From Candidatus Gastranaerophilales bacterium (GTDB lineage Bacteria > Cyanobacteriota > Vampirovibrionia > Gastranaerophilales > Gastranaerophilaceae): a stretch of 64,000 nt of DNA. The DNA lies in assembly GCA_944326545.1 (NCBI GenBank), contig CALVEH010000007.1, forward strand, positions 1-64,000, read 5' to 3'. This document shows positions 3,628 through 61,425 of the stretch, in pieces (position 1 is the stretch's first letter; every line of letters begins with the position of its first letter). A program made the translations under genes and the position numbers. The notes below the pieces were generated by a model. That model was not told where the DNA came from. It saw only the letters and a list, made by a program, of their open reading frames with translations, and ran no database searches.

Positions 3628-3915
3628 CTATTCTGTAATCTGTACGGAAGAATTATCATTCTTAAATTGATTTTCCGTTGCCCAAAATGATTTGATTCTT
3701 AATGCTCCCGCTTTAAAATTCCACTTAAACGGCAATTTGTCCGGGGAAACGGTTATTTCCGTAAGATTGCCTTCGATATTTGCATATACATCTGCTCCGA
3801 CAATTTCAACAGGCTTTTCGCCTTGTTTAACATTAAGTTCAATTTCCAATGGATCAGCAAGTACACTTTCGCCGCAAAAAAGCAGCAAAGCGAGTAAAAT
3901 TGATAATTTTTTCAT
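3628..3915 (-). CDS. Small secreted protein with signal peptide
   Basis: 95 residues from the ATG at 3915, chosen because GGAGGT lies about 9 bases upstream; an upstream in-frame start at 3936 would cover the ribosome site. The N-terminus is a classic signal peptide: MKKL, a Leu-rich core, then a VLA-like cleavage site near residue 20. The mature part is a small beta-rich domain with no recognised family. It is preceded by RNA element copy A. A secreted protein next to the adhesion module could be periplasmic or act at the cell surface. Confidence 0.6.
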   Translation of the reverse strand: MKKLSILLALLLFCGESVLADPLEIELNVKQGEKPVEIVGADVYANIEGNLTEITVSPDKLPFKWNFKAGALRIKSFWATENQFKNDNSSVQITE

Positions 3916-3935: not shown

Positions 3936-4060
3936 AGTGTGTGAAAGGTCAAACGGTCAAGGCGTTGAGCCTTGCCGTCTTGACCTATAACCGTTCTAAG
4001 CCGCCGTTGTTCCCAAAGCGTAAGCGGCGGGAACGAACAAATCTTTGATTTGACAGGCGG
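3936..4060 (-). ncRNA. Structured RNA element, copy A
   Basis: On the minus strand CCGCC (4060-4056) pairs with GGCGG (4005-4001) around two hairpins. P2 is CAAATC-AAA-GATTTG (4052-4038). P3 is GTTCCC/GGGAAC (4034-4009). A spacer, CTTAGAACGGTTA, is followed by a long third hairpin, P4 (3986-3946), with AGGTCAA/TTGACCT and CAAGGC/GCCTTG around a TCAAC loop. TTCACACACT and the ribosome site of the next gene follow. Copies B and C share every loop and joining segment but have different paired bases in P3 and P4, which is compensatory variation. Confidence 0.7.
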
Positions 4061-4087
4061 TTATTTTTAAATGTTGAAATTAACAAA

Positions 4088-4744
4088 CTACAGAGCAAGC
4101 GGCGTGCCGTTTACAAAATCCGCCGATAATTGCAAAGCACATTCTTGTATAAACGCTGTTGTTGCGTTTTTTGCCTCCTGTAGGGAAATGATATACTCCG
4201 GCGTTACTTCTTGAGTAAAATCGGGTGTATTATACACAAGAATCGGAACAGTCTGCCCCATTTGAACACCCATAGAAATAGCCGGCAATAAATCACTCAA
4301 GAAATCTTTTGTTTCTCCTGTCGACATACTGACTTTACGGCGGATATAACCTAAAGAAGTTAAGAAAAATTCATTTTCGAAAATTTCCTGCCTTGCTGCA
4401 GCAATTTCATCGTTTGTTTTTTCAACGACATTTCCGTCTTGAATTTTGTATTTGTACGGCGTTAATTCAATATTTTCAGCGGTTTCATTTGTTACAAGAT
4501 AAAAACCGTCCTCAATATCGCCAAGATTTTCAATATCATAAATATTGAGTTCGGAATCAACTTTTTTGTGAGAAAACCTGTAATCATTAACGAGCGACCA
4601 AGTTTGAGATTCCGCATTATATACGGCGGCTTTGCCCTCCGGTATTTCGGGCGGGGCGACTGCTGTTTTCCCGTCCCCTGTTTCGGTTTCGTATGGCATT
4701 GTTGCTGAATATTCGCCCGTTTCTGTATTATATGAATATATCAC
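4088..4744 (-). CDS. Probable tail-fibre accessory protein
   Basis: 218 residues from a GTG start at 4744 with GGAGGTTTTAA just upstream; ATG alternatives would lose conserved-looking sequence. The N-terminus has repeated short beta segments (Tyr/Thr/Glu-rich) like those of tail-fibre assembly proteins. The C-terminal half is helical. It overlaps the end of the reverse transcriptase gene by 17 bases and so is co-transcribed with the retroelement. I do not recognise a precise family; the role rests on context. Confidence 0.5.
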   Translation of the reverse strand: MIYSYNTETGEYSATMPYETETGDGKTAVAPPEIPEGKAAVYNAESQTWSLVNDYRFSHKKVDSELNIYDIENLGDIEDGFYLVTNETAENIELTPYKYKIQDGNVVEKTNDEIAAARQEIFENEFFLTSLGYIRRKVSMSTGETKDFLSDLLPAISMGVQMGQTVPILVYNTPDFTQEVTPEYIISLQEAKNATTAFIQECALQLSADFVNGTPLAL

Positions 4745-5804
4745 TTAAAACCTCCTTTTCTAATTTGTACATGCTACGCCGTGCGTTACGGCGTTTCATC
4801 GAGCCTTTTGTGCTGACAAAAGACCTCGATATTTCATCTTTTGACATTACGCCCTTTTTATAAAGTTTTATCATCCCTTTATAACGTCGTCTTGCCCGTG
4901 TTATGCTTGACCTGCAAGGCTTTTTAATAATCTTTTTGCCGTCTATTTTGTAACGGGTTTTTAAAAAGGTGAAATATTGTGTCAAAGGAACGATTCTCGT
5001 TTTCTTGAAATTTAAAACGATGCCCATTTCTTCATATTTTTTAAATAAAACTTTTGTAAATTCCTGTAATTTTTCTTTGTTTTCGCTGATTATATAAGAG
5101 TCATCCATATAGCGACCGTAATATTTGTAATGATTTTTGACAAAATGATCGATTTTGTTAATATAAATTATTGCGTTAAATTGACTTACCTCGCTTCCTA
5201 AACCGAGTCCCTTTTCGTAAGCCGTAATTGCTTTTATAAGCAGACTTTTTAATCTTTCATCCTGAAAATTATCGTTATAGAATTGAATTAACGGTTCGTG
5301 CTTTATATTTTCAAAATATTTTGAGAAATCAACGGTTAAAATATAACCTGTATTGTGTTTTATTAAAAATTCTCTTAAATGTTTTTCAAGTGTTTTACTT
5401 GCAAAGGTTGTTCCTTTGCCTTTTTGGCTTGCGGAATTTTCTTTTATTAAAGTATTTCCGAATTTCGGCAATAAAACATATTTGCAAAGCCATTTTTGTA
5501 TAAATCTTTCATAAAAATGCAGGCTTTGAATTTCTCTCTTCTTACCTCTTTCAAAAATTCTGAAACAAATAAAACCCTGCCTTATATCTTTTCCGTTTAA
5601 AATATCTTTTCGAGCCTGATGTATTCTAAAAAGCAATGATAATCTAAACCGCTGAATACTTTGTTTCCAAAACACGAGCCTAAAAGACTGTAAAGCCGCA
5701 TTATATAAATTTTGAAGGCTTGCAAGTTTTGACAGATTTTCAATTTCTTTTTGCTGCTTTAATTCTTTACGCTTGCGGCGTTTGCCTCTTCTTGTATTGT
5801 TCAA
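4728..5804 (-). CDS. Reverse transcriptase of a diversity-generating retroelement
   Basis: Copies the template-repeat RNA into cDNA with errors at adenines; the cDNA then replaces the variable repeat of the target gene. In 358 residues the retroviral-type polymerase motifs are in order: catalytic D159 in TVDFSKYF, a GLGSEVSQ motif at 201-208, and YMDD at 232-235. The SQ in motif 4 is typical of DGR enzymes; group II intron and many retron enzymes usually have QG there. The N-terminus is very basic (RRGKRRKRK), suited to RNA binding. There is no maturase or endonuclease domain. Template repeat, accessory gene and target gene lie directly upstream in the usual DGR set. Confidence 0.95.
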   Translation of the reverse strand: MNNTRRGKRRKRKELKQQKEIENLSKLASLQNLYNAALQSFRLVFWKQSIQRFRLSLLFRIHQARKDILNGKDIRQGFICFRIFERGKKREIQSLHFYERFIQKWLCKYVLLPKFGNTLIKENSASQKGKGTTFASKTLEKHLREFLIKHNTGYILTVDFSKYFENIKHEPLIQFYNDNFQDERLKSLLIKAITAYEKGLGLGSEVSQFNAIIYINKIDHFVKNHYKYYGRYMDDSYIISENKEKLQEFTKVLFKKYEEMGIVLNFKKTRIVPLTQYFTFLKTRYKIDGKKIIKKPCRSSITRARRRYKGMIKLYKKGVMSKDEISRSFVSTKGSMKRRNARRSMYKLEKEVLSDIFI

Positions 5805-6092
5805 ATTTATAACTTTCTGTTTGTAAGTATTGAAGTTATGCTATGCCGGGAAAATATAAACTTGTTTCAAGACAAGTTTAGCCTTTTTATTTTCTATTCC
5901 GAAAAACCGCAAATATTAAACAGACTATAATCGGCGAATTTACCTGTAATGCAACTCTAATATTTCAAGGGCGGAACATTTGCGGCTTGCATAGCACCAA
6001 TTTATGAGGGGGTTAGCCTCAAAGGTCTTTCGTTCCTTTCAAGTTTTGCGTTGGTTTCGCTTTAAATTTCTTCAAAGTTACTCCGTCAAGCG
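5805..6092 (-). ncRNA. Spacer RNA between template repeat and reverse transcriptase
   Basis: This 288-base stretch has no gene. In studied DGRs the RNA between the template repeat and the RT gene is essential: it binds the RT-Avd complex and primes cDNA synthesis. The position here is the same, and the segment contains several short inverted repeats. The function is inferred from position. Confidence 0.5.
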
Positions 6093-6200
6093 TTTTGAAA
6101 TCCGAAGCACGCCGATATATTCGTATTCGTGGCATTGTTCTGGTTGACATTACCGTTGCCGTTCACATTGCAGACGTTAGTCGCTGTATTACCGGAAGGA
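6093..6200 (-). repeat. DGR template repeat (TR)
   Basis: 108 bp that align without gaps to 6763-6870. Fifteen positions differ (6093, 6096, 6101, 6120, 6135, 6136, 6139, 6144, 6150, 6151, 6157, 6162, 6163, 6168, 6178). At every one the TR has T on the plus strand, which is A on the coding strand. Read in the frame of the target gene, the variable sites are mostly AAC or AAT codons, the codons best suited to adenine mutagenesis. TR lies 15 bases past the avd stop. Confidence 0.97.
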
Positions 6201-6215
6201 TGTGTAACGAAAAAC

Positions 6216-6665
6216 CTATTCAAAAACGGGCTTTTGCCAAGTCTTTGAATTTTGTTTTACAGGCTTTATTTTTTCGGATTTTTTCCACGCAACAAGCAAG
6301 ATTAACTCATTACACAATAAATCGATAATTTCATTAAGACTGTCGATTGTTACGGAATCAACCGTCATTTCGAGTTTTATTATCAGATTTTGGAGTTGAT
6401 AACAATTTGCAATCGCTTTTGTTTGGTAATTTTTTCTTAATCTTAACTCCTCATCATTCGTTACATAGATTGAATTTGCAAAAGAGATATTATCAACAAG
6501 CTCGTCGGCTTTATTTATCAATGGTACACCAATTAAAAGTCGATATTTTTTCGGAACATATTTTTCCTTGACACAATATTTTGTAATCAACATTTGTAAC
6601 TGCAAAGCGTTAATTTCAAATTGCGTTGTTGTTTTTCCTCTTAATCTTTTATAAACATTACTCAT
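6216..6665 (-). CDS. avd: Avd-like accessory protein of the DGR
   Basis: 149 residues, nearly all predicted helix with a basic surface, matching the size and four-helix-bundle nature of accessory variability determinant (Avd) proteins. Avd forms a pentamer that binds the RT and the template RNA and is needed for mutagenic homing. It lies between the target gene and the TR, the usual place. The identity rests on size, helical content and position, as Avd sequences are divergent. The Arg/Lys-rich N-terminus (YKRLRGKTTT) suits nucleic-acid binding. Confidence 0.75.
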   Translation of the reverse strand: MSNVYKRLRGKTTTQFEINALQLQMLITKYCVKEKYVPKKYRLLIGVPLINKADELVDNISFANSIYVTNDEELRLRKNYQTKAIANCYQLQNLIIKLEMTVDSVTIDSLNEIIDLLCNELILLVAWKKSEKIKPVKQNSKTWQKPVFE

Positions 6666-6677
6666 AAGATACCTATA

Positions 6678-6700
6678 CCGCCCGCACTTCCGGCGGGCGG
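6678..6700 (-). other. GC-rich hairpin downstream of the variable repeat
   Basis: CCGCCCGC / GCGGGCGG, an 8-bp perfect stem with a 7-base loop, lies 63-85 bases past the end of the variable repeat and before avd. It is strikingly GC-rich for this DNA, and no T run follows on the minus strand, so it is a poor terminator. Studied DGRs need a hairpin or cruciform with an 8-bp stem in this position for target recognition. Confidence 0.65.
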
Positions 6701-6755
6701 ATTAAAGATTGCGGAAATAAGTTTATAGCAGAACCGACACTCCCGCTCTGTAAGA

Positions 6756-7847
6756 TTAACCTATTCGAAAGCCGAAGCACGCCGATATAGTCGTATTCGT
6801 GGCACCGTACTGGGTGACAAGACCGTAGCCGGCCACAATGCAGACGTGAGTCGCTGTATTACCGGAAGGACAACAAAGCCAGTAATTCGAACGGGCGTTT
6901 GTATTTGCTCCGACTTTTGCTCTTGAATTATACATAAAATACGGGTATTGTCGGGTCATATTACGGGTTAAGTTATCAATATTTGCGGTTGAATCGTTCG
7001 ACCTGTTGTATGAGTTTGGCTGATAGCCGCAAACTTCGACTTCGTGCGGAACCCACAATTTCCCCATATCAACCCAATCATAACCGCTCGGATAATTTAC
7101 TTGTTTTGAAGCGTTGTATTGTTTTTCCATCCAGTTTCTTTTTTGGATTAAAACATTTTGACACGCTTGCGGTAACATTTGCAAAACTCCGCCGGATGAA
7201 CAATTCATCCCGTGAGCGAGATTACCCTGTGCGGCTGTTGAATAGTTATTTACCCCGTTTAAAATAGCATAAATTTTAGAGGATAACCACGGGTTCTGCT
7301 GTGCTGCAGTACCATTGTTTGTATTGCCGTCATTCCAAGTAAAATTAGTTTCAAGTGTTTTTTCTGATATGAAGTCAATATGATGAGGGATAACCGTATC
7401 ACCCCAGCCGCAATATGTGTCGATACCCACAACAACCATTTTATGCTGTTGATTTGCGGCGATTTGATATGTTCCGCCGATTGTTCCGCCTGTTAAAGTT
7501 ACAGGGATATAATCGCCTATATGAATACCGGAATAATTTGCGGCTTGAATCCTTGCTTTAATCCACGCCCATACATCCCCGTCATAATCCGTATTGATTT
7601 CATCAGCATGCTTGACCGATAAATCGACAGGTGTATATAAACCGTCCGTTACGGCTCTTATATAATCAATCGCCTCGTCGCCTAAGTTTGAAAAATCCGG
7701 TTTTACGAAGCCGCTTTGTATTTCACCGATAGCCTCGTCAATTTTTTCAAAATTTTCGTTTAAATCTCTGTCAAAATCGTAAAAATCATTTCCATCATTT
7801 TCCATATCTGTAAGATATAAATCAAGATTTTCAGTATATTTAGGCAT
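6756..7847 (-). CDS. DGR variable protein, tail tip receptor-binding protein
   Basis: 363 residues. The N-terminal ~60 residues look like a virion-attachment segment (many Asp/Glu, short helices). The rest resembles the DUF6273-type, C-type-lectin-like fold often found as a DGR target, with Trp/Gly/Asn-rich strands and an ACFGFRIG ending. The variable repeat covers the last ~37 codons. TR-directed changes have turned template Asn codons into T, G, Y, T, L, Y, A, I and H here. It overlaps the baseplate gp48-like gene by 8 bases, so it belongs to the tail operon. It probably sets host-surface specificity. The start has a GGAGGGGAG ribosome site. Confidence 0.9.
   Translation of the reverse strand: MPKYTENLDLYLTDMENDGNDFYDFDRDLNENFEKIDEAIGEIQSGFVKPDFSNLGDEAIDYIRAVTDGLYTPVDLSVKHADEINTDYDGDVWAWIKARIQAANYSGIHIGDYIPVTLTGGTIGGTYQIAANQQHKMVVVGIDTYCGWGDTVIPHHIDFISEKTLETNFTWNDGNTNNGTAAQQNPWLSSKIYAILNGVNNYSTAAQGNLAHGMNCSSGGVLQMLPQACQNVLIQKRNWMEKQYNASKQVNYPSGYDWVDMGKLWVPHEVEVCGYQPNSYNRSNDSTANIDNLTRNMTRQYPYFMYNSRAKVGANTNARSNYWLCCPSGNTATHVCIVAGYGLVTQYGATNTTISACFGFRIG
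6763..6870 (-). repeat. DGR variable repeat (VR)
   Basis: The gapless partner of the template repeat at 6093-6200. All 15 differences fall on template adenines, and none of the template G, C or T positions has changed. The last 22 coding bases before the GFRIG ending are nearly invariant and are the likely initiation-of-homing region. Similarity ends abruptly at 6871. Confidence 0.97.
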
Positions 7848-8505
7848 CTCCCCTCCTACAATCGCAATATTTATATTTTTGGATCTGCTGCATTTGTGAT
7901 TTAGTTAAAACGTGATGAATTTCTTTTTTGCGTAAAAAACGTGGTATGAATAAACCTACGTTTTGAGCAGGTTTTATTTTTACAAGAGCATTTATGATAT
8001 TTTTAAAAGTCTGTTCGTCAAAAAAATCACTGCTTTGAACAATAAAAGAATGTTTTCCGTTTGTTAATACAACAGGATCTTTAATGTTATTCTTGTAATG
8101 CAAAATTCCGTTTCCGATAGCTCTTGCCCCGTAGGTATTATAATTTTGAGGAATGTTTTCTATTACCCGAACCGGAAACCCTTTTTGCTGTAAAATTTGC
8201 TCGATTTGTTTATAAGTTTGAGAACCGGCAAGAGCCGTCCATTGCCCTTCAATATTTGCCGCCCGCTCCTCAAGGGTTTTTCCTGCTGTATCTTTTATTC
8301 CGAATAATTCTTCCCCGTTTTTTATGTTGTTTTCGTCGACAAGATAAGTCGGAAAATGAATAAATTTAAAACTTATAAACCTTGTTTTTAAATCAGCAAA
8401 AGGAGAGGCAATTAAATCGAATAGCTCCGAAGTAAATCCCCTCGGCGTCAACCATGCACGCCCCCTGCCTAAAAGTTTTTTAAGAGTTACTTTGATAACG
8501 TTCAT
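7840..8505 (-). CDS. Mu gp48 / YmfQ-like tail protein (DUF2313)
   Basis: 221 residues. The N-terminal LLGRGRAWLTPRGFTSELFDLIASPFADL matches the start of DUF2313 tail proteins (LLPPGRAW.. pattern). These sit between the baseplate J protein and the fibre gene in Mu-like phages and help attach fibres to the baseplate. The start overlaps the J-like gene by 4 bases and the end overlaps the variable-protein gene by 8. The order gp46-gp47-gp48-fibre is the Mu order. Confidence 0.8.
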   Translation of the reverse strand: MNVIKVTLKKLLGRGRAWLTPRGFTSELFDLIASPFADLKTRFISFKFIHFPTYLVDENNIKNGEELFGIKDTAGKTLEERAANIEGQWTALAGSQTYKQIEQILQQKGFPVRVIENIPQNYNTYGARAIGNGILHYKNNIKDPVVLTNGKHSFIVQSSDFFDEQTFKNIINALVKIKPAQNVGLFIPRFLRKKEIHHVLTKSQMQQIQKYKYCDCRRGDA

Positions 8506-9731
8506 TGTTCTTCCTCATCTGGGTTGTTATATACGGTTGTTCCGTTTATAATAAGCGTTTTTAAATAAGCCAAGCAGCCTATTCCGAGAGTTTCTTCGCT
8601 GGTTTCTTGTCCTTCGCCGTCTTTTAAAGTAAATTTTGTAAACGTTTCATCACCAATAATATTACTTACTGCGGCGGATAACTGCCCGCTGTTTATTTTG
8701 GCGTTTGCCTCTGAATAATTAAGAACGACTAATTCCGGACGTTTTTCATCTAACACACTGATCAAGACCTCTCTTATAGAGTCGCTGTAACTTGTATCTG
8801 TTAAGCCTGTAATTTCAATTATAAATGGTGTGTAATTAGGCGTTTTAATATCCACCGTTACAGTGACGGGGCGGCGGTCGTGAACACCCGGTTCGCTTCC
8901 TTCGATTGAATTTGCTATTGCTAACATTTGACCGGACCCGCTTAATTCCGTAAATTGCCCCTTATCCCATACCGGAAACGGGTTAGGTGTTAATGTCCCG
9001 CCCGGCGTCCTTCTTTTTCCGGACCCTTCGGCAACGGGATATATTGTAACCGTTCCTTCCTCTAGCACGTATGGTAAAGCGTCAACTATGCCCGAAACTT
9101 CCATTGTCCAAGAGTAATAGTCAAGCGGGCTTCCGGATTGAGACTTGTTGCGGAATTTATACAAAACTCTTTTTCTGTATTCTTCGAGTTCCTCATCCGC
9201 TGTCCCTTCGATTGTTACGGCGGTAACGATCGCCGTTGAAGGTATGCCGTCTATGGGGTTAGCAATATTTAAGACCGTTCCTGCCGGTAAATTCCCGACC
9301 GATCCCGGCGACGTACAAATTACGGTTGCCGTAATTTCACCCTCAACCGTTGCAACTTGTGAGGCTGTTTTAAAAATCAAGCCCGAATTTAATTCTTTGT
9401 AGACTACACCGGCGGGCAAATATTGAGCATTTACATCTGTTAATTTGACGGATAAATTCGCCGTTTCGCCGTTTTTGTAATCAACCCCGATCAAGTTTCC
9501 CCAAAATTTAAGAGCTGCCAAACCGCAAGTTTGCGGAAAACATTGTTTGTAAACCCAAACTGAAAGTTGCCAAAGTTCGCCGCACACCCCTGCTATTGCG
9601 TAACCTAAACTTTTTATTGCCGCTTTACTCAATATCGGGCTGTTATCGCCGTTTTTGGTTCTTAAAATAGTATATTTTGCAATAAAGCCGTCGTATATTT
9701 CTTTGATTGTTTTTGTTGTAAAATTTGCCAT
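8502..9731 (-). CDS. Baseplate J-like protein (Mu gp47)
   Basis: 409 residues from the ATG at 9731, which has GGAGGAG 3-10 bases upstream; the longer frame to 9776 reads through RNA element copy B and is not used. Family hallmarks include an N-terminal helical part, a central beta region with GT.G.GNLPAGTVL, and TADEELEEYRKRVLYKFRN followed by a G.P.DYY.W segment. It builds the wedge of a contractile-tail baseplate. Confidence 0.9.
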   Translation of the reverse strand: MANFTTKTIKEIYDGFIAKYTILRTKNGDNSPILSKAAIKSLGYAIAGVCGELWQLSVWVYKQCFPQTCGLAALKFWGNLIGVDYKNGETANLSVKLTDVNAQYLPAGVVYKELNSGLIFKTASQVATVEGEITATVICTSPGSVGNLPAGTVLNIANPIDGIPSTAIVTAVTIEGTADEELEEYRKRVLYKFRNKSQSGSPLDYYSWTMEVSGIVDALPYVLEEGTVTIYPVAEGSGKRRTPGGTLTPNPFPVWDKGQFTELSGSGQMLAIANSIEGSEPGVHDRRPVTVTVDIKTPNYTPFIIEITGLTDTSYSDSIREVLISVLDEKRPELVVLNYSEANAKINSGQLSAAVSNIIGDETFTKFTLKDGEGQETSEETLGIGCLAYLKTLIINGTTVYNNPDEEEQ

Positions 9732-9740
9732 TTCTCCTCC

Positions 9741-9862
9741 AGTGTGTGAAGGCTCGCTTCGGCTTGCGTTGAGCAAGACGAAAGAGCCGTAACCGTTCTA
9801 TGCCGCCGTTAGGGTTGAAGCGTGAGCGAAAACCCTGCACAAATCTTTGATTTGGCAGGCGG
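9741..9862 (-). ncRNA. Structured RNA element, copy B
   Basis: Same plan as copy A. Outer stem CCGCC (9862-9858) pairs with GGCGG. P2 is CAAATC-AAA-GATTTG. P3 is AGGGTT/AACCCT (9836-9811). The linker is CATAGAACGGTTA. P4 is GGCTC/GAGCC plus TTTCG/CGAAG and CTTGC/GCAAG (9788-9751) around the same TCAAC loop. TTCACACACTGGAGG leads into the baseplate J start. Compared with copy A, both arms of P3 and P4 have changed together while the loops have not. Confidence 0.7.
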
Positions 9863-9874
9863 TTTTTATTGATT

Positions 9875-10273
9875 TTATATAGCCTTTAAAACATATTTTT
9901 CATTTTGCCAAATCACGGCATAAGACGAACTTGTCTCGTCCGGTTCCGTAATTGTTATTTGAACATTTATTTTCTCACTTATGTCGCCGGAGGCTTTAAC
10001 CGTAATATCGCTTGCGAGTCCTTCTTGCAAAAACCAGTCAAGAAGTTTTTTAGCCGTTCTTTCAACATTTTGAAGATTTAAGGCGGTTATCGGTTGATTG
10101 AGAGCTTCCTCAAAAGAGTTGTCGCTTTGGTACTCTTCAAAAACATTGTAATAATTATCCCCGCCAAAAAGTGAAACATACAGGGCGGTCGAAAAAGTGC
10201 CGTCCTCTTTGACGTCGCCGCCTTCAAGGACAAATTCACCTCCGTCGCCGTTATCAGTCAATAATAAATCCAT
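9875..10273 (-). CDS. Mu gp46-like baseplate protein
   Basis: 132 residues. It opens with MDLLLTDNGDGGEFVLEGGDV and continues with ALYVSLFGG, the pattern of the GP46 family (small baseplate proteins related to P2 gpW). The position between the spike-like gp45 and the J-like gp47 agrees. Only 3 bases separate it from the upstream gene. RNA element copy B follows its stop. Confidence 0.85.
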   Translation of the reverse strand: MDLLLTDNGDGGEFVLEGGDVKEDGTFSTALYVSLFGGDNYYNVFEEYQSDNSFEEALNQPITALNLQNVERTAKKLLDWFLQEGLASDITVKASGDISEKINVQITITEPDETSSSYAVIWQNEKYVLKAI

Positions 10274-10276
10274 TGT

Positions 10277-10840
10277 TTAACTGCCTCCTGTTACAATACC
10301 CGCTGAAGCCTGTACGCTGTTTGTATAAGTTCCGCTTGCTCCGTCGCCGGCTTCAATATGAGACGCCGTGAAATTACCGGAATGTTGCCAGTTGCCGGAG
10401 CTTTGGATCGTGTCGGCTGTTAAAGATAGCGACGCCGCATCAACTTCCGCCGAGCCGGTAATATCAAAAACCGCATTGCCGAGAACGGTTATTTGTAAAT
10501 CTTTCCCGCCTGAAATAATAATTGAACCGTCTTTTTTTAAATGTATTTCGGCGGCAACAAGAATTTCTTGCGTGTCCTCGTCTTTTTTAACGGAATATAA
10601 TCTTTTTTCTCCCGGCTCGCTTTTACGGGTAACATCATCACGCCACCCGCAAACAAACCCGTTTGCGGGATTGTCTCCGATTGTTCCGCCCAACCCCTCA
10701 AATTCCAATAAGGGCGAATAATCATCACCCCCGGAGTGAAATTGAACAACGTTCGTTGTTTTTCTTGCTAGAAAATTCGTTTTAAAATATCGCAAATTCA
10801 AATTTGTAAATATTTCGAGAATTTTTGTTTTGAAAAACAT
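10277..10840 (-). CDS. Baseplate spike/assembly protein (Mu gp45, P2 gpV-like)
   Basis: 187 residues from the ATG at 10840, with GGAGGT just upstream; the longer frame would extend into RNA element copy C. The N-terminal half is an OB-like domain (VVQFHSGGDDYSP.. EFEGLGGTIG). The C-terminal third is a Gly/Ser/Thr-rich beta repeat such as forms the trimeric membrane-piercing needle. It forms the tip of the tail tube. Confidence 0.85.
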   Translation of the reverse strand: MFFKTKILEIFTNLNLRYFKTNFLARKTTNVVQFHSGGDDYSPLLEFEGLGGTIGDNPANGFVCGWRDDVTRKSEPGEKRLYSVKKDEDTQEILVAAEIHLKKDGSIIISGGKDLQITVLGNAVFDITGSAEVDAASLSLTADTIQSSGNWQHSGNFTASHIEAGDGASGTYTNSVQASAGIVTGGS

Positions 10841-10849
10841 TTTACCTCC

Positions 10850-10971
10850 AGTGTGTGAAGGCTCGCTTCGGCTTGCGTTGAGCAAGACGAAAGAGCCGTA
10901 ACCGTTCTAAGCCGCCGTTAGGGTTGAAGCATAAGCGTAAACCCTGAACAAATCTTTGATTCGACAGGCGG
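10850..10971 (-). ncRNA. Structured RNA element, copy C
   Basis: Nearly the same as copy B in P4, with a P3 apical region intermediate between A and B (conserved CGCT-YAYGCTT). P2 has one A-to-G change that converts an A-U pair to G-U and so keeps the stem. Unlike A and B it is flanked by a 16-bp direct repeat, CCTCCAGTGTGTGAAG, at 10845-10860 and 10976-10991. It ends at the ribosome site of the gp45-like gene. Confidence 0.7.
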
Positions 10972-11002
10972 ATAGCCTCCAGTGTGTGAAGTGTAGTTTT
11001 TA

Positions 11003-28062: not shown

Positions 28063-28743
28063 TTAAATCCCCCGAAATAACTTCATTTGTGCTTGAGCTT
28101 CTTTCAAACGTTCGACGCTTGCTTGATAATATTGAAACTTTTTCTCTGTACAAATAAAGGGTATTCCTAAATTATGACAGGCGATCGCCGTTGTTCCGGA
28201 CCCGGAGAAAAAATCAGCGACAATGCCCCGACATTCTTTGTTTTTGTAATAATCTCGCAAAATCATCTCAAATAAACGGACGGGCTTTTGTGTCGGGTGA
28301 ATCCTATATTCTTTGTTTTTCATATCCTGCTGGATCATTCCGTTCCACCGCCAAACATATTTTTTAACCGCTGAAGAAAACGAAGTCCACGCAAGCTCGC
28401 AATCGGCATAATTCCCTGTATTGTCTTTGTCCCAAACAATCCAACACGGAGAATTTTTTCTTATACTCTCCGTCATAAAATTTCCGCCGAAAATTATTTG
28501 ATTTTTTGAAACTCGAAACATCTCATCAAAATAAACTTGCTCCGGCGTTGCGTCGTCCCAGTTATCTTTCCCGTAATTTGTAACCGCAACCCCCGCACGT
28601 CCCGGAGAACCAAGAACACCCCGGCGGGCGATTTTTAAACCGTAAGGCGGATCAGTTAATATCAAATCAATACACTTGTCCGGGAGTTGTCTCATAACCT
28701 CTAAACAATCGGCGTGCGTGATTTTGTTTAAATATCTCTCCAT
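28063..28743 (-). CDS. DNA methyltransferase, DPPY type (intact copy)
   Basis: 226 residues. The order is catalytic motif IV first (LTDPPYGLK, ~residues 30-38), then SAM-binding motif I near the C-terminus (VADFFSGSGTTAIACHNLG), a beta-class N6-adenine or N4-cytosine layout. IHPTQKP precedes motif I. It has no specificity domain or partner nuclease here, so it is a solitary phage methylase, probably protecting phage DNA from host restriction. It is a close paralogue of the next gene upstream and arose by tandem duplication. Confidence 0.9.
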   Translation of the reverse strand: MERYLNKITHADCLEVMRQLPDKCIDLILTDPPYGLKIARRGVLGSPGRAGVAVTNYGKDNWDDATPEQVYFDEMFRVSKNQIIFGGNFMTESIRKNSPCWIVWDKDNTGNYADCELAWTSFSSAVKKYVWRWNGMIQQDMKNKEYRIHPTQKPVRLFEMILRDYYKNKECRGIVADFFSGSGTTAIACHNLGIPFICTEKKFQYYQASVERLKEAQAQMKLFRGI

Positions 28744-28745
28744 TG

Positions 28746-29421
28746 TTAAAATAACCTTAATTGAGCTTGAACATCTTTTAACCTCTGAACGCTCAACTCG
28801 TAATATTCGGGATCTTTTTCAACACAAATAAACGGTAAGCCGAGATTATGACAAGCGATCGCCGTTGTTCCCGAACCTGAGAAAAAATCAGCAACTAGCC
28901 CCCCCCCCCGCAAGGTTCGGAACATAATCCCGCAAAATCATTTCAAACAACTTGAGCGGTTTTTGCGTCGGGTGAAAACGAAATTTGTTTTCCTCTTTGT
29001 CGTCGTTAATAAAACCTTGTTGTATGAATGTTATTTTCTTTGTTACGGATTTAAAGCTCGTCCATATCAATTCACACTCGGAAAAATTATTTTTTAATTT
29101 CAACCCGCCGATCTTGTCCCAAATTAACCACGCTTTTGTAGGCGGCAAATATTTTGTAAAATAATTTCCGCCGAAAATTATTTGATTTTTCGAAACTCGG
29201 AACATTTCGTCAAAATATGTTTTTTCGGGAATATTCTTATCCCACGATTTTTTCTTTAAATCTTTGGGTTTAACCCCTAAGCCATAAGAACCGCCGTCGC
29301 AAGATATACCGTAAGGCGGATCGGTTAATATCAAATCAATACATTTGTCCGGGAGCTGTTTCATAACCTCTAAACAGTCGCCGAGGGTTATTTTATTTAA
29401 AAGCTCTTTAATCAAAACCAA
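28746..29421 (-). pseudogene. DNA methyltransferase out of frame at a G11 tract (phase-variable?)
   Basis: The frame from 29421 encodes DPPYG (motif IV) and HPTQKP. It then meets a run of 11 G (plus-strand C at 28899-28909), which leads to a stop at 28888. Removing one G continues the frame to a TAA at 28746, adding FFSGSGTTAIACHNLG (motif I) and giving 224 residues like its 226-residue neighbour. In this state the enzyme lacks its SAM-binding motif and must be inactive. A slipping G tract is typical of phase-variable genes; a sequencing error is the alternative. Confidence 0.8.
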
Positions 29422-59121: not shown

Positions 59122-59347
59122 CGTCATATTGAGGCGTGAGCCAAGAACTCTGTTCAAGAGGTGACTAAATGTCACGTTTTGAATAGAGGAAAGCTAAGTC
59201 AAAAACGTAGTTTTTGCGTGCTGCATAGAGATATAAAAACTTGGCGTGATACCAAAAGATTGTGAGATTCTTGCTTGAGATGTAGGCGAGTTTACGAGCC
59301 GTACATATCAGGATACCCGTGAGGGTACGCTAACGCTCAGAATGACG
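59122..59347 (-). repeat. Dispersed ~226-bp repeat, inverted copy
   Basis: On the minus strand it matches the two units at 60868-61093 and 61200-61425 closely, from CGTCATTCTGAGCGTTAGCG to CTCAACATGACG. It fills most of the gap between the ROK kinase and the flagellin. No gene is visible in 59,087-59,588. Such CGTCATTCTGAG-type units resemble REP-like intergenic elements. Confidence 0.8.
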
Positions 59348-59481
59348 AAGTATGATTTATCACAGTCAGCGCAGATACAGGAGCCTTATAAAAAAAACAA
59401 TTTTGAATGGACTTGTTGTTTGCAAATGAGGTGCTTAATATTCATAGCTAGCCAAGATACTGAAGCCTCATAAAAAACAAG

Positions 59482-59516
59482 AAAAAAAGCCCGAAGATTT
59501 TTAAAACCCTCGGGCA
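59482..59516 (-). terminator. Flagellin terminator
   Basis: GCCCGA / TCGGGC hairpin followed on the minus strand by TTTTTTT, about 70 bases past the flagellin stop. Confidence 0.75.
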
Positions 59517-59588
59517 AGTTGCCATCACCTATTATAGTAAATTTGTCTATTAATTTTATGATGTCATTCAACAATACTATCCCTGACT

Positions 59589-60437
59589 CTATTGAATCAA
59601 GCTCAACGCAATTGATGGGAGCTGATTTGCTTGAACCAAAAGTGAAGAAGCAGTTTGTTGAAGAATTTGATACTGCGTAAAGTTTGCAGCTTCTTCTGCA
59701 ATATCTGCGTCCATAATGGTTGATTTTGCAGCGGTAGAGTTTTCAATAGTAGTTGTTAATGAGTCAGTAGCTGCATCAAGTCTGTTACCTGCAGCACCGA
59801 TTGCAGCTTTTGCAGTGTTGATATTATCGATTGCAGTATCGATTGTATCAAGATAAGCAGCAGCAGCAGTTGCATTTGCGTAGTTTGTTGTAATCTGACC
59901 TACATCCAAACCTAAAGTTGCTGAATCTTTAGCAGCAAATATAGTTTGATCGATTTTTACACAGTTTGCAGCTTCGTCTGCATTAGCACCAACTTGCAAT
60001 CTAACATCGCCCATAGAACCGTCTAACAATTTTTTACCATTGAAGTTAGAAGATTCAGCAATACGGTCAATTTCTTCCATACGTTTAGTGATTTCGTCTG
60101 TAAGAGCATCCATAGATTGTTGGTCATAGATACCGTTTGCTGCTTGAACTGTCAAGTCTCTGATACGAGTAACGTTATCAAGAATTACATCAAGGTCACC
60201 TTCAGCAATGCTTAACATGTTAGCTGCAGTAGAAATGTTGCTTTTTGCAACTTTTGAACCACTGATTTGTACATCCAAGTTAGTTGCGATATACATGTTA
60301 GCTGCGTCATCTTTAGCACCGTTGATTTTATAACCAGTTGACATTCTTTCTAACGCTTTGTTCATACCATTTGTAGCGTCAGTTAGGTTTCTTTGTGTCT
60401 TTAAAGCAGACATGTTTGTGTTAACAATAATTGGCAT
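59589..60437 (-). CDS. Flagellin A (short)
   Basis: 282 residues containing only the conserved D0/D1 parts: N-terminal NTNMSALKTQRNLTDATNGMNKALERMSTGYKINGAKDDAA, RIRDLTVQAANGIY, and C-terminal AEEAANFTQYQILQQTASSLLVQANQLP. The variable D2/D3 domain is almost absent. AAAGGAG ribosome site. A second flagellin lies 1.1 kb to the right on the same strand, with no other flagellar gene here. Confidence 0.95.
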   Translation of the reverse strand: MPIIVNTNMSALKTQRNLTDATNGMNKALERMSTGYKINGAKDDAANMYIATNLDVQISGSKVAKSNISTAANMLSIAEGDLDVILDNVTRIRDLTVQAANGIYDQQSMDALTDEITKRMEEIDRIAESSNFNGKKLLDGSMGDVRLQVGANADEAANCVKIDQTIFAAKDSATLGLDVGQITTNYANATAAAAYLDTIDTAIDNINTAKAAIGAAGNRLDAATDSLTTTIENSTAAKSTIMDADIAEEAANFTQYQILQQTASSLLVQANQLPSIALSLIQ

Positions 60438-60483
60438 TTTGATCTCCTTTCGCCAAACTGCTCACGTCCGTGCAAGCAGCTTT

Positions 60484-60634
60484 GTTTAGACTGTAATAAC
60501 GTAAATTTTTAATATTTCTTATCTGTGAATTCGAATGGGGATAGAATTCACAACATATTTGTATGTATTTTCCTGTGTTTAGACTTTCTTAGACTGTATT
60601 TCTCAACGAAAAATCATCTACCTGTTTAGACTGT
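60484..60634 (-). promoter_or_regulatory. Four GTTTAGACTGT-type repeats upstream of flagellin A
   Basis: GTTTAGACTGT at 60484-60494, GTTTAGACTTT at 60577-60587, CTTAGACTGT at 60588-60597 and GTTTAGACTGT at 60624-60634, all in the same direction. A related TTTAGACAG lies at about 62390 before the second flagellin. They look like binding sites for a regulator of flagellin expression or an RNA-level signal in the leader. Confidence 0.5.
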
Positions 60635-60661
60635 GAACTGTTACACGTTGTCCACACTCAT

Positions 60662-60690
60662 ATAATATCGTTCCGTGGGCTAAAACTTAA
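60662..60690 (-). promoter_or_regulatory. Candidate sigma-28 promoter for flagellin A
   Basis: On the minus strand TTAAGTTT (-35 side, 60690-60683) and CGATATT (-10 side, 60670-60664) resemble the flagellar consensus TAAAGTTT-N11-GCCGATAA, with a spacing about one base short. It would give a long leader of about 220 bases. Confidence 0.4.
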
Positions 60691-60765
60691 TTCTTAAAAA
60701 GTTAGAAAAAAGCCAAACTAAAGTATGGTTTTTAATCAATAAGAAAATACCCCAAAAATACCAAT

Positions 60766-61425
60766 CGTCATTTTGAGGGAGTGAAACGACCGAAGAATCT
60801 CATAAGTTTTTGGGTTTCAAATCAAGCTGGTGAGATGTTTCGCCAAAGGCTCAACATGACGCCCCCTCGTCATTCTGAGCGTTAGCGTACCCTCACGGGT
60901 ATCCTGATATGTACGGCTCGTAAACTCGCCTACATCTCAAGCAAGAATCTCACAATCTTTGTTTACCACGCCAAGCTTTTATATTTCTATATAGCACGCA
61001 GAAACTGCGTTTCTGACTTAGCTTCCCTCTATTCAAAACGTGACATTTAGTCACCTTTTGAACAGAGTTCTTGGCAAAGCCTCAACATGACGGCTAACGT
61101 CATTCTGAGGAAGTGTAGCGACCGAAGAATCTCATAAGTTTTTGGGTTTCAAATCAAGCTGGTGAGATGTTTCGCCAAAGGCTCAACATGACGCCCCCTC
61201 GTCATTCTGAGCGTTAGCGTACCCTCACGGGTATCCTGATATGTACGGCTCGTAAACTCGCCTACATCTCAAGCAAGAATCGCACAATCTTTGTTTACCA
61301 CGCCAAGCTTTTATATTTCTATACAGCACGCAGAAACTGCGTTTCTGACTTAGCTTCCCTCTATTCAAAACGTGACATTTAGTCACCTTTTGAACAGAGT
61401 TCTTGGCTTCGCCTCAACATGACAA
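60766..61425. repeat. Tandem compound repeat between the flagellin genes
   Basis: Two copies of a ~332-bp unit (60766-61097 and 61098-61425). Each is a ~102-bp part starting GTCATT.TGAGG and then a ~226-bp part starting CGTCATTCTGAGCG, the same as the inverted copy at 59122-59347. The two copies are nearly identical. There is no open frame of note. Confidence 0.85.

Follow-up and report, generated by a model that had tools for sequence, protein, structure and literature searches.

A 64,000-nucleotide stretch of contig CALVEH010000007.1 from a Candidatus Gastranaerophilales bacterium (the window) carries a prophage with three copies, A, B, and C, of a small structured element on its minus strand. 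We read this element as a repeat of about 120 bp, dispersed, non-coding, and rich in hairpins, that behaves as a small mobile element passing between chromosome and prophages and whose transcripts form intercistronic mRNA structure, and we give this reading a probability of about two in three. Its hosts, the Gastranaerophilales, are non-photosynthetic relatives of cyanobacteria. The window copies, with their scores against the family model described below, are:

3937..4060, minus strand: copy A, 124 nt, organized as P1(P2,P3)-linker-P4-TTCACACAC; 94.5 bits, E 2.8e-19
9742..9862, minus strand: copy B, 121 nt, between the gp46-like and gp47-like baseplate genes; 102.5 bits
10851..10971, minus strand: copy C, 121 nt, between the gp44-like hub gene and the gp45-like gene; 105 bits

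Direct reading and alignment of the three copies bear out the fold that a first-pass annotation of the sequence had described: an outer stem (P1) encloses two hairpins (P2 and P3) and is followed by a third hairpin (P4) and the TTCACACAC tail. In all three, P1 is CCGCC/GGCGG and P2 is CAAATC-AAA-GATTTG (with one G:T pair in C), the linker carries GAACGGTTA, and the constant tail is TTCACACACT. P3 is variable, being GTTCCC/GGGAAC in A versus AGGGTT/AACCCT in B and C, and around the constant TCAAC loop P4 reads GGC-TCAAC-GCC in A versus TTGC-TCAAC-GCAA in B and C; both arms of P3 and of P4 have changed, as claimed. Since B and C are 93% identical across 134 nt, they represent one duplication and not two independent witnesses, and the comparison within the window is effectively one of A with a single other sequence. 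Single-sequence folding against shuffled sequences gave z values of -4.96 for A, -2.81 for B, and -1.48 for C, so the fold beats chance in A and B and, for C alone, not clearly. The Rfam check called for by the first-pass annotation gave no family match to the element: at the gathering score, only a tRNA located elsewhere was found in the window, and only the tmRNA (transfer-messenger RNA) genes beside the element at six chromosomal loci. The element is absent from this RNA-family library.

A DNA search of the same genome found relatives of the element on further contigs, one of them between rpsJ and rplC, and many more were found in related genomes. We then used a covariance model, R1, built from 15 copies including A, B, and C. 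It has 7 matches in the genome of the window, occurs in 22 of the 23 genomes of the host genus with up to 20 matches per genome, and extends to 90 of the 192 genomes and 20 of the 45 genera sampled from the order Candidatus Gastranaerophilales. The scores of the window copies (94-105 bits, E about 1e-19 to 1e-21) are not independent because these copies are among the seed sequences of the model; the independent support for the family is the copies in other genomes. Most copies are chromosomal, and the element is not phage-specific. The INPHARED phage database yielded no match, and a pattern search of IMG/VR yielded three contigs, two of which, from one kind of phage, share a single degenerate copy, and the third without a covariance-model match. 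As far as searched, the repeat is specific to the Gastranaerophilales lineage. No report of such a repeat in Treponema, Gastranaerophilales, or Melainabacteria was found in the open-access literature; abundant in a gut lineage that is mostly uncultured, it appears to be undescribed.

The window prophage has a Mu-like tail, as judged from PHROG and Pfam matches, and the genes behind the three copies are:

3628..3915, minus strand: small secreted-protein open reading frame (ORF) behind copy A, with a signal-like N-terminal sequence and no family match
8502..9731, minus strand: gp47-like baseplate J protein behind copy B (Pfam PF04865, E 2e-35; PHROG 6, baseplate wedge)
10277..10840, minus strand: gp45-like gene behind copy C (PHROG 5226, function unknown)

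All copies had been described as ending at a ribosome site. This holds directly for B and C, where the tail runs into a GGAGG by adjoining the TGGAGG of gp47 (start 9731) and of gp45 (start 10840), respectively; in A the GGAGG follows only after about 10 nt. A sibling prophage in a second genome (G103) has homologous genes, with a gp47-like protein 61% identical. Its gp46-gp47 and gp44-gp45 junctions, the sites of B and C, are short and empty, and it holds three copies beside other genes. Two further copies are found in an unrelated prophage (genome G096) and one in the IMG/VR contigs. In all nine phage copies, which come from one viral contig and from three prophages of which two are related, the tail points toward the ribosome site of the next gene, which is the opposite of the orientation of chromosomal copies.

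This shared orientation, with the tail at a ribosome site, favors the idea first put forward for the element, that of a phage-specific cis-acting leader controlling tail and adhesion genes. The majority of copies, however, are chromosomal and lie in opposite orientation behind the stops of ribosomal, chaperonin, and metabolic genes, and the sibling prophage lacks B and C at its homologous baseplate genes while carrying copies by others. With neither restriction to phages nor conservation at orthologous positions, we consider a phage cis-regulatory leader RNA very improbable. The first-pass annotation had offered a phage-borne mobile RNA as its other option, and of this the mobility fits the polymorphism between sibling prophages and the dispersed copies.

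A direct repeat around copy C had gone unnoticed in the first reading:

10976..10991, minus strand: upstream 16-bp direct repeat CTTCACACACTGGAGG flanking copy C, 16 of 16 positions matching
10845..10860, minus strand: downstream 16-bp direct repeat CTTCACACACTGGAGG, made up of the end of the tail and the ribosome site

Two of the G103 copies have such repeats as well, TTTTCACACACTGGAATAT (about 19 bp) and TTCACACACTTAAAAATA (about 18 bp), and at the tmRNA gene the insert is flanked by 16 bp of the gene's 5' region in the genome of the window and by 28 bp of it in another genus; no clear direct repeat is seen at rpsJ. Tandem arrays also occur in chromosomes, with a unit of about 131 nt that repeats the end of the host gene, and truncated tandem units break at hairpin bases. 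Since the direct repeats vary in length and often hold the tail, we read them as insertion plus tandem duplication and claim no transposase signature. The near-perfect palindromes, tandem arrays, truncated units, and variable-length direct repeats would also be consistent with non-functional hairpin debris, in which compensation arises by palindrome correction or replication template switching and spread occurs only by tandem duplication and recombination. Such debris fails to account for copies at dozens of unlinked sites across 20 genera or for a placement behind stop codons far above its control (see below), and we consider it the least credible of the explanations weighed here.

Covariation was scored on 63 model-aligned matches, 58 of them distinct. 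Of the stem cells, 94.4% are paired, and across the distinct copies 24 of the 30 stem pairs show double-sided change, so that the two-sided changes seen between A and B/C recur as strong covariation in the wider family. Cells with double-sided change number 270, whereas shuffles gave 82 and slid controls no more than 65; since the matches had been aligned to this same model, the figures lean toward it, although the effect is large nevertheless. The outer stem, for example, occurs as CCGCC/GGCGG, GCTCC/GGAGC, and CCGGC/GCCGG. The stems are nearly pure Watson-Crick, with 36 G:T and 17 A:C cells of about 1580, each at or below 2-3%, whereas functional RNAs are often richer in G:U. Compensatory change alone is for this reason no proof of selection at the RNA level, and the earlier conclusion that it signals selection for RNA structure was too strong. 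A DNA-level constraint, such as hairpin-dependent copying, or palindrome correction would yield an equal pattern and is a serious alternative. On the reverse strand, P3 often has GNRA-type loops (GAAA, GCAA, GUAA, GUGA) or GNA triloops together with purine 3x3 internal loops, features that suit mini-hairpins of RNA and of DNA alike. An RNA function of the element is plausible as a hypothesis.

Chromosomal copies lie behind stop codons. Placement was scored over 113 clusters (138 copies, with tandem copies counted once), and in 78 of them the stop of a reverse-strand ORF of at least 60 aa falls at -8 to 12 nt from the GTGTGTGAA end, with 1 nt ahead of that end as the commonest position. Removing a spurious 71-aa antisense ORF in phage leaves 77, compared with 2.2% for control positions shifted by 30-800 nt, and the P1-side end lies near a stop codon in only 5 of the 113 clusters. 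The sense strand in chromosomes is the reverse strand, 5'-GTGTGTGAA-P4-linker-P1(P3,P2)-A-rich-3'. Host genes, recognized by their sequence ends, include rplN, rpsJ, rplE, nusG, groES, atpD, and tpiA, and one subfamily has a leading AAAGCGTAAGCC that supplies '...Lys-Ala-stop' to its host gene. Among the clusters with no such stop are those in phages, some that sit at the 5' end of the tmRNA gene, partial copies close to tRNA genes, one cluster after rpmJ (which is too short for the filter), and two in an apparent thrS leader. At three loci (L074, L293, and L328) a piece of the 5' end of the tmRNA gene (GGGGACGTTTTG) is duplicated and copies stand between this duplicate and the gene, so the leader of the tmRNA precursor may contain the element.

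Two other accounts were tried and rejected. An intrinsic terminator would show a GC stem followed by a T-run; the copies have no T-run and lie between operon genes. Terminator-like sites number 10 versus 9.3 expected, and the sole one touching a copy (10862-10844) is none of its conserved stems. Replication-strand bias as the source of orientation was set aside because the groES and rpsJ copies lie the same way relative to their genes and third-position GC skew is opposite at the two, a weak argument since the skew is noisy.

The near-fixed position 1-3 nt past the stops of highly expressed operon genes, in constant orientation, lends support to a cis-acting RNA, in which the reverse-strand fold after the stop codon controls mRNA decay, termination, or ribosome release, mobility is secondary, and the phage copies are borrowed. 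The reverse-strand GNRA-type and GNA loops with their purine internal loops point the same way, as does, weakly, the orientation of copies in the genome of the window, which tracks the gene whichever strand the skew marks as leading. So does the fact that stems at orthologous loci change at a lower rate than loops (2.1% versus 8.6% at rpsJ and 1.9% versus 4.0% at rplN), which suggests that structure is kept after insertion and is mild evidence, neutral between RNA and DNA. Compensated versus broken pairs number 3 and 2 at rpsJ and 15 and 3 at groES, where two loci resemble a different subfamily; against a cis-acting RNA, the rplN-rplX copies have 5 broken and 0 compensated pairs. G:T pairs are moreover barely tolerated on both strands, the phage copies are inverted, the adjoining genes are unrelated, and the rplN-rplX spacers of about 30 genomes carry other hairpins or nothing. 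We regard a cis-acting RNA as unlikely, and as the rival with the best claim to attention.

The rplN-rplX spacer deserves a remark of its own. In the genome of the window (L246) and at L258, L260, L261, L264, and L270, unrelated hairpin-rich inserts directly follow the rplN stop, and in some species of other families (L254, L272, L275) the spacer is only about 15-20 nt. It seems to be repeatedly colonized by different repeats.

For the mobile repeat that we favor, the hairpins would be required for copying or moving the element as DNA, as suggested by palindromes with hardly any G:T or A:C, by direct repeats that vary in length, and by units truncated at hairpin bases. Insertion would be tolerated, or even favored, between a stop codon and the following ribosome site because reading frame and start signal remain intact there. 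Once transcribed, hairpins behind host genes may provide 3' protection or a termination-side effect, and in phage they could act as a spacer ahead of the start site.

The closest comparison is with miniature inverted-repeat transposable elements (MITEs), with which the repeat shares its small size, non-coding nature, intergenic position, multiple copies, and insertion polymorphism. MITE-like repeats include ERIC of enterobacteria, Correia of Neisseria, and QMITE2 of Coxiella; QMITE2 is found for the most part in 3' untranslated regions, and ERIC copies at the 3' ends of genes alter transcript levels (PMC10969869). The present repeat resembles these in its length class (~100-200 bp), stem-loop transcripts, variable copy number, and direct repeats. 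Unlike MITEs, it is a three-hairpin junction and not one long hairpin, its orientation is opposite in phage and chromosome, its ends (CCGCC and TTCACACAC) form no terminal inverted repeats, its direct repeats are not of fixed length, and no related insertion sequence was found for it among the Y1 family searched. We do not file it as a MITE, since a search for terminal inverted repeats and for a target duplication of fixed length found neither; our reading places it in the broad MITE/REP/ERIC class of mobile hairpin repeats.

Several of these observations weigh against a mobile element. The ends CCGCCTGTC and GTGTGTGAA (the reverse complement of the tail) do not match. The direct repeats, often containing the element's own tail, are not the short target-site duplications of fixed length that were tested for, and they may derive from tandem duplication rather than insertion. 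A search for an autonomous partner, confined to the Y1 transposase family (PF01797), found none: Y1 genes are present in 8 of the 23 genus genomes and absent from the genome of the window, and no Y1 gene has the element flanking it within 1.5 kb. Finally, the slower change of stems suggests that something acts on the structure of inserted copies, and a purely selfish element could do without this.

Other known systems fit less well. Like the repetitive extragenic palindromes (REPs) of enterobacteria, the repeat consists of short palindromic extragenic sequence located behind genes, and, as cited from Liang 2015 in PMC12306157, ribosomes are stalled by REPs that lie within 15 nt of a stop codon. 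A REP is one hairpin of 20-40 bp, and many carry a GTAG or CGTC tag (PMC3733652), whereas the unit here, at about 120 bp, has three hairpins and shows no link to a Y1 transposase. A REP or bacterial interspersed mosaic element (BIME) with its REP-associated tyrosine transposase (RAYT) was rejected on this unit size, on Y1 loci without elements, and on the lack of a Y1 gene in the genome of the window. The conserved multi-hairpin fold with covariation recalls the cis-regulatory RNAs of Rfam, from which the repeat differs in being mobile and in standing in both orientations to unrelated genes. An attC-like integron site, judged by eye only, was dismissed because the outer ends lack the expected core sites.

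Other features of the window include a complete diversity-generating retroelement (4728-7847, minus strand):

4728-5804, minus strand: reverse transcriptase of the retroelement
6094-6200, minus strand: template repeat
6764-6870, minus strand: variable repeat, at the 3' end of the target ORF 6756-7847

All 14 of the 14 differences between template and variable repeat fall at template adenines, and in the sibling prophage of G103 the target protein is nearly identical but has other residues in the variable region, which suggests that the retroelement is active. An inverted repeat of 49 nt, 94% complementary, lies at 575-623 and 1288-1336; one arm forms the beginning of an N-acetylmuramoyl-L-alanine amidase-like lysin gene (KIFLNPGHGGTDPG), and a second copy of this motif is on the opposite strand, 664 nt away, so that the lysin end is possibly invertible or duplicated. 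Two adjacent paralogous stretches at 28075-29401, direct repeats 74-89% identical and about 670-685 nt apart, are apparently tandem duplicated genes. At 59139-61408 a 300-nt tandem repeat (98%) is accompanied by a 210-nt inverted copy 1.5-1.9 kb away.

A more far-reaching possibility, which we hold to be improbable, is that these are order-wide mobile RNA hairpins specialized in stop codons that place a folded module just after the coding sequence of essential host genes and tune termination or decay; the phage-inverted copies, near-complementary to host mRNA ends, could then interfere with them or be shielded. For annotation, the compensatory changes inside this one window need not signal a phage regulatory RNA, and the covariance model is able to annotate the repeat in this gut lineage. 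Its placement behind stop codons in chromosomes and its reversed placement in phages offer a natural test of whether such repeats are tolerated debris, mRNA stabilizers, or translation-termination modules.

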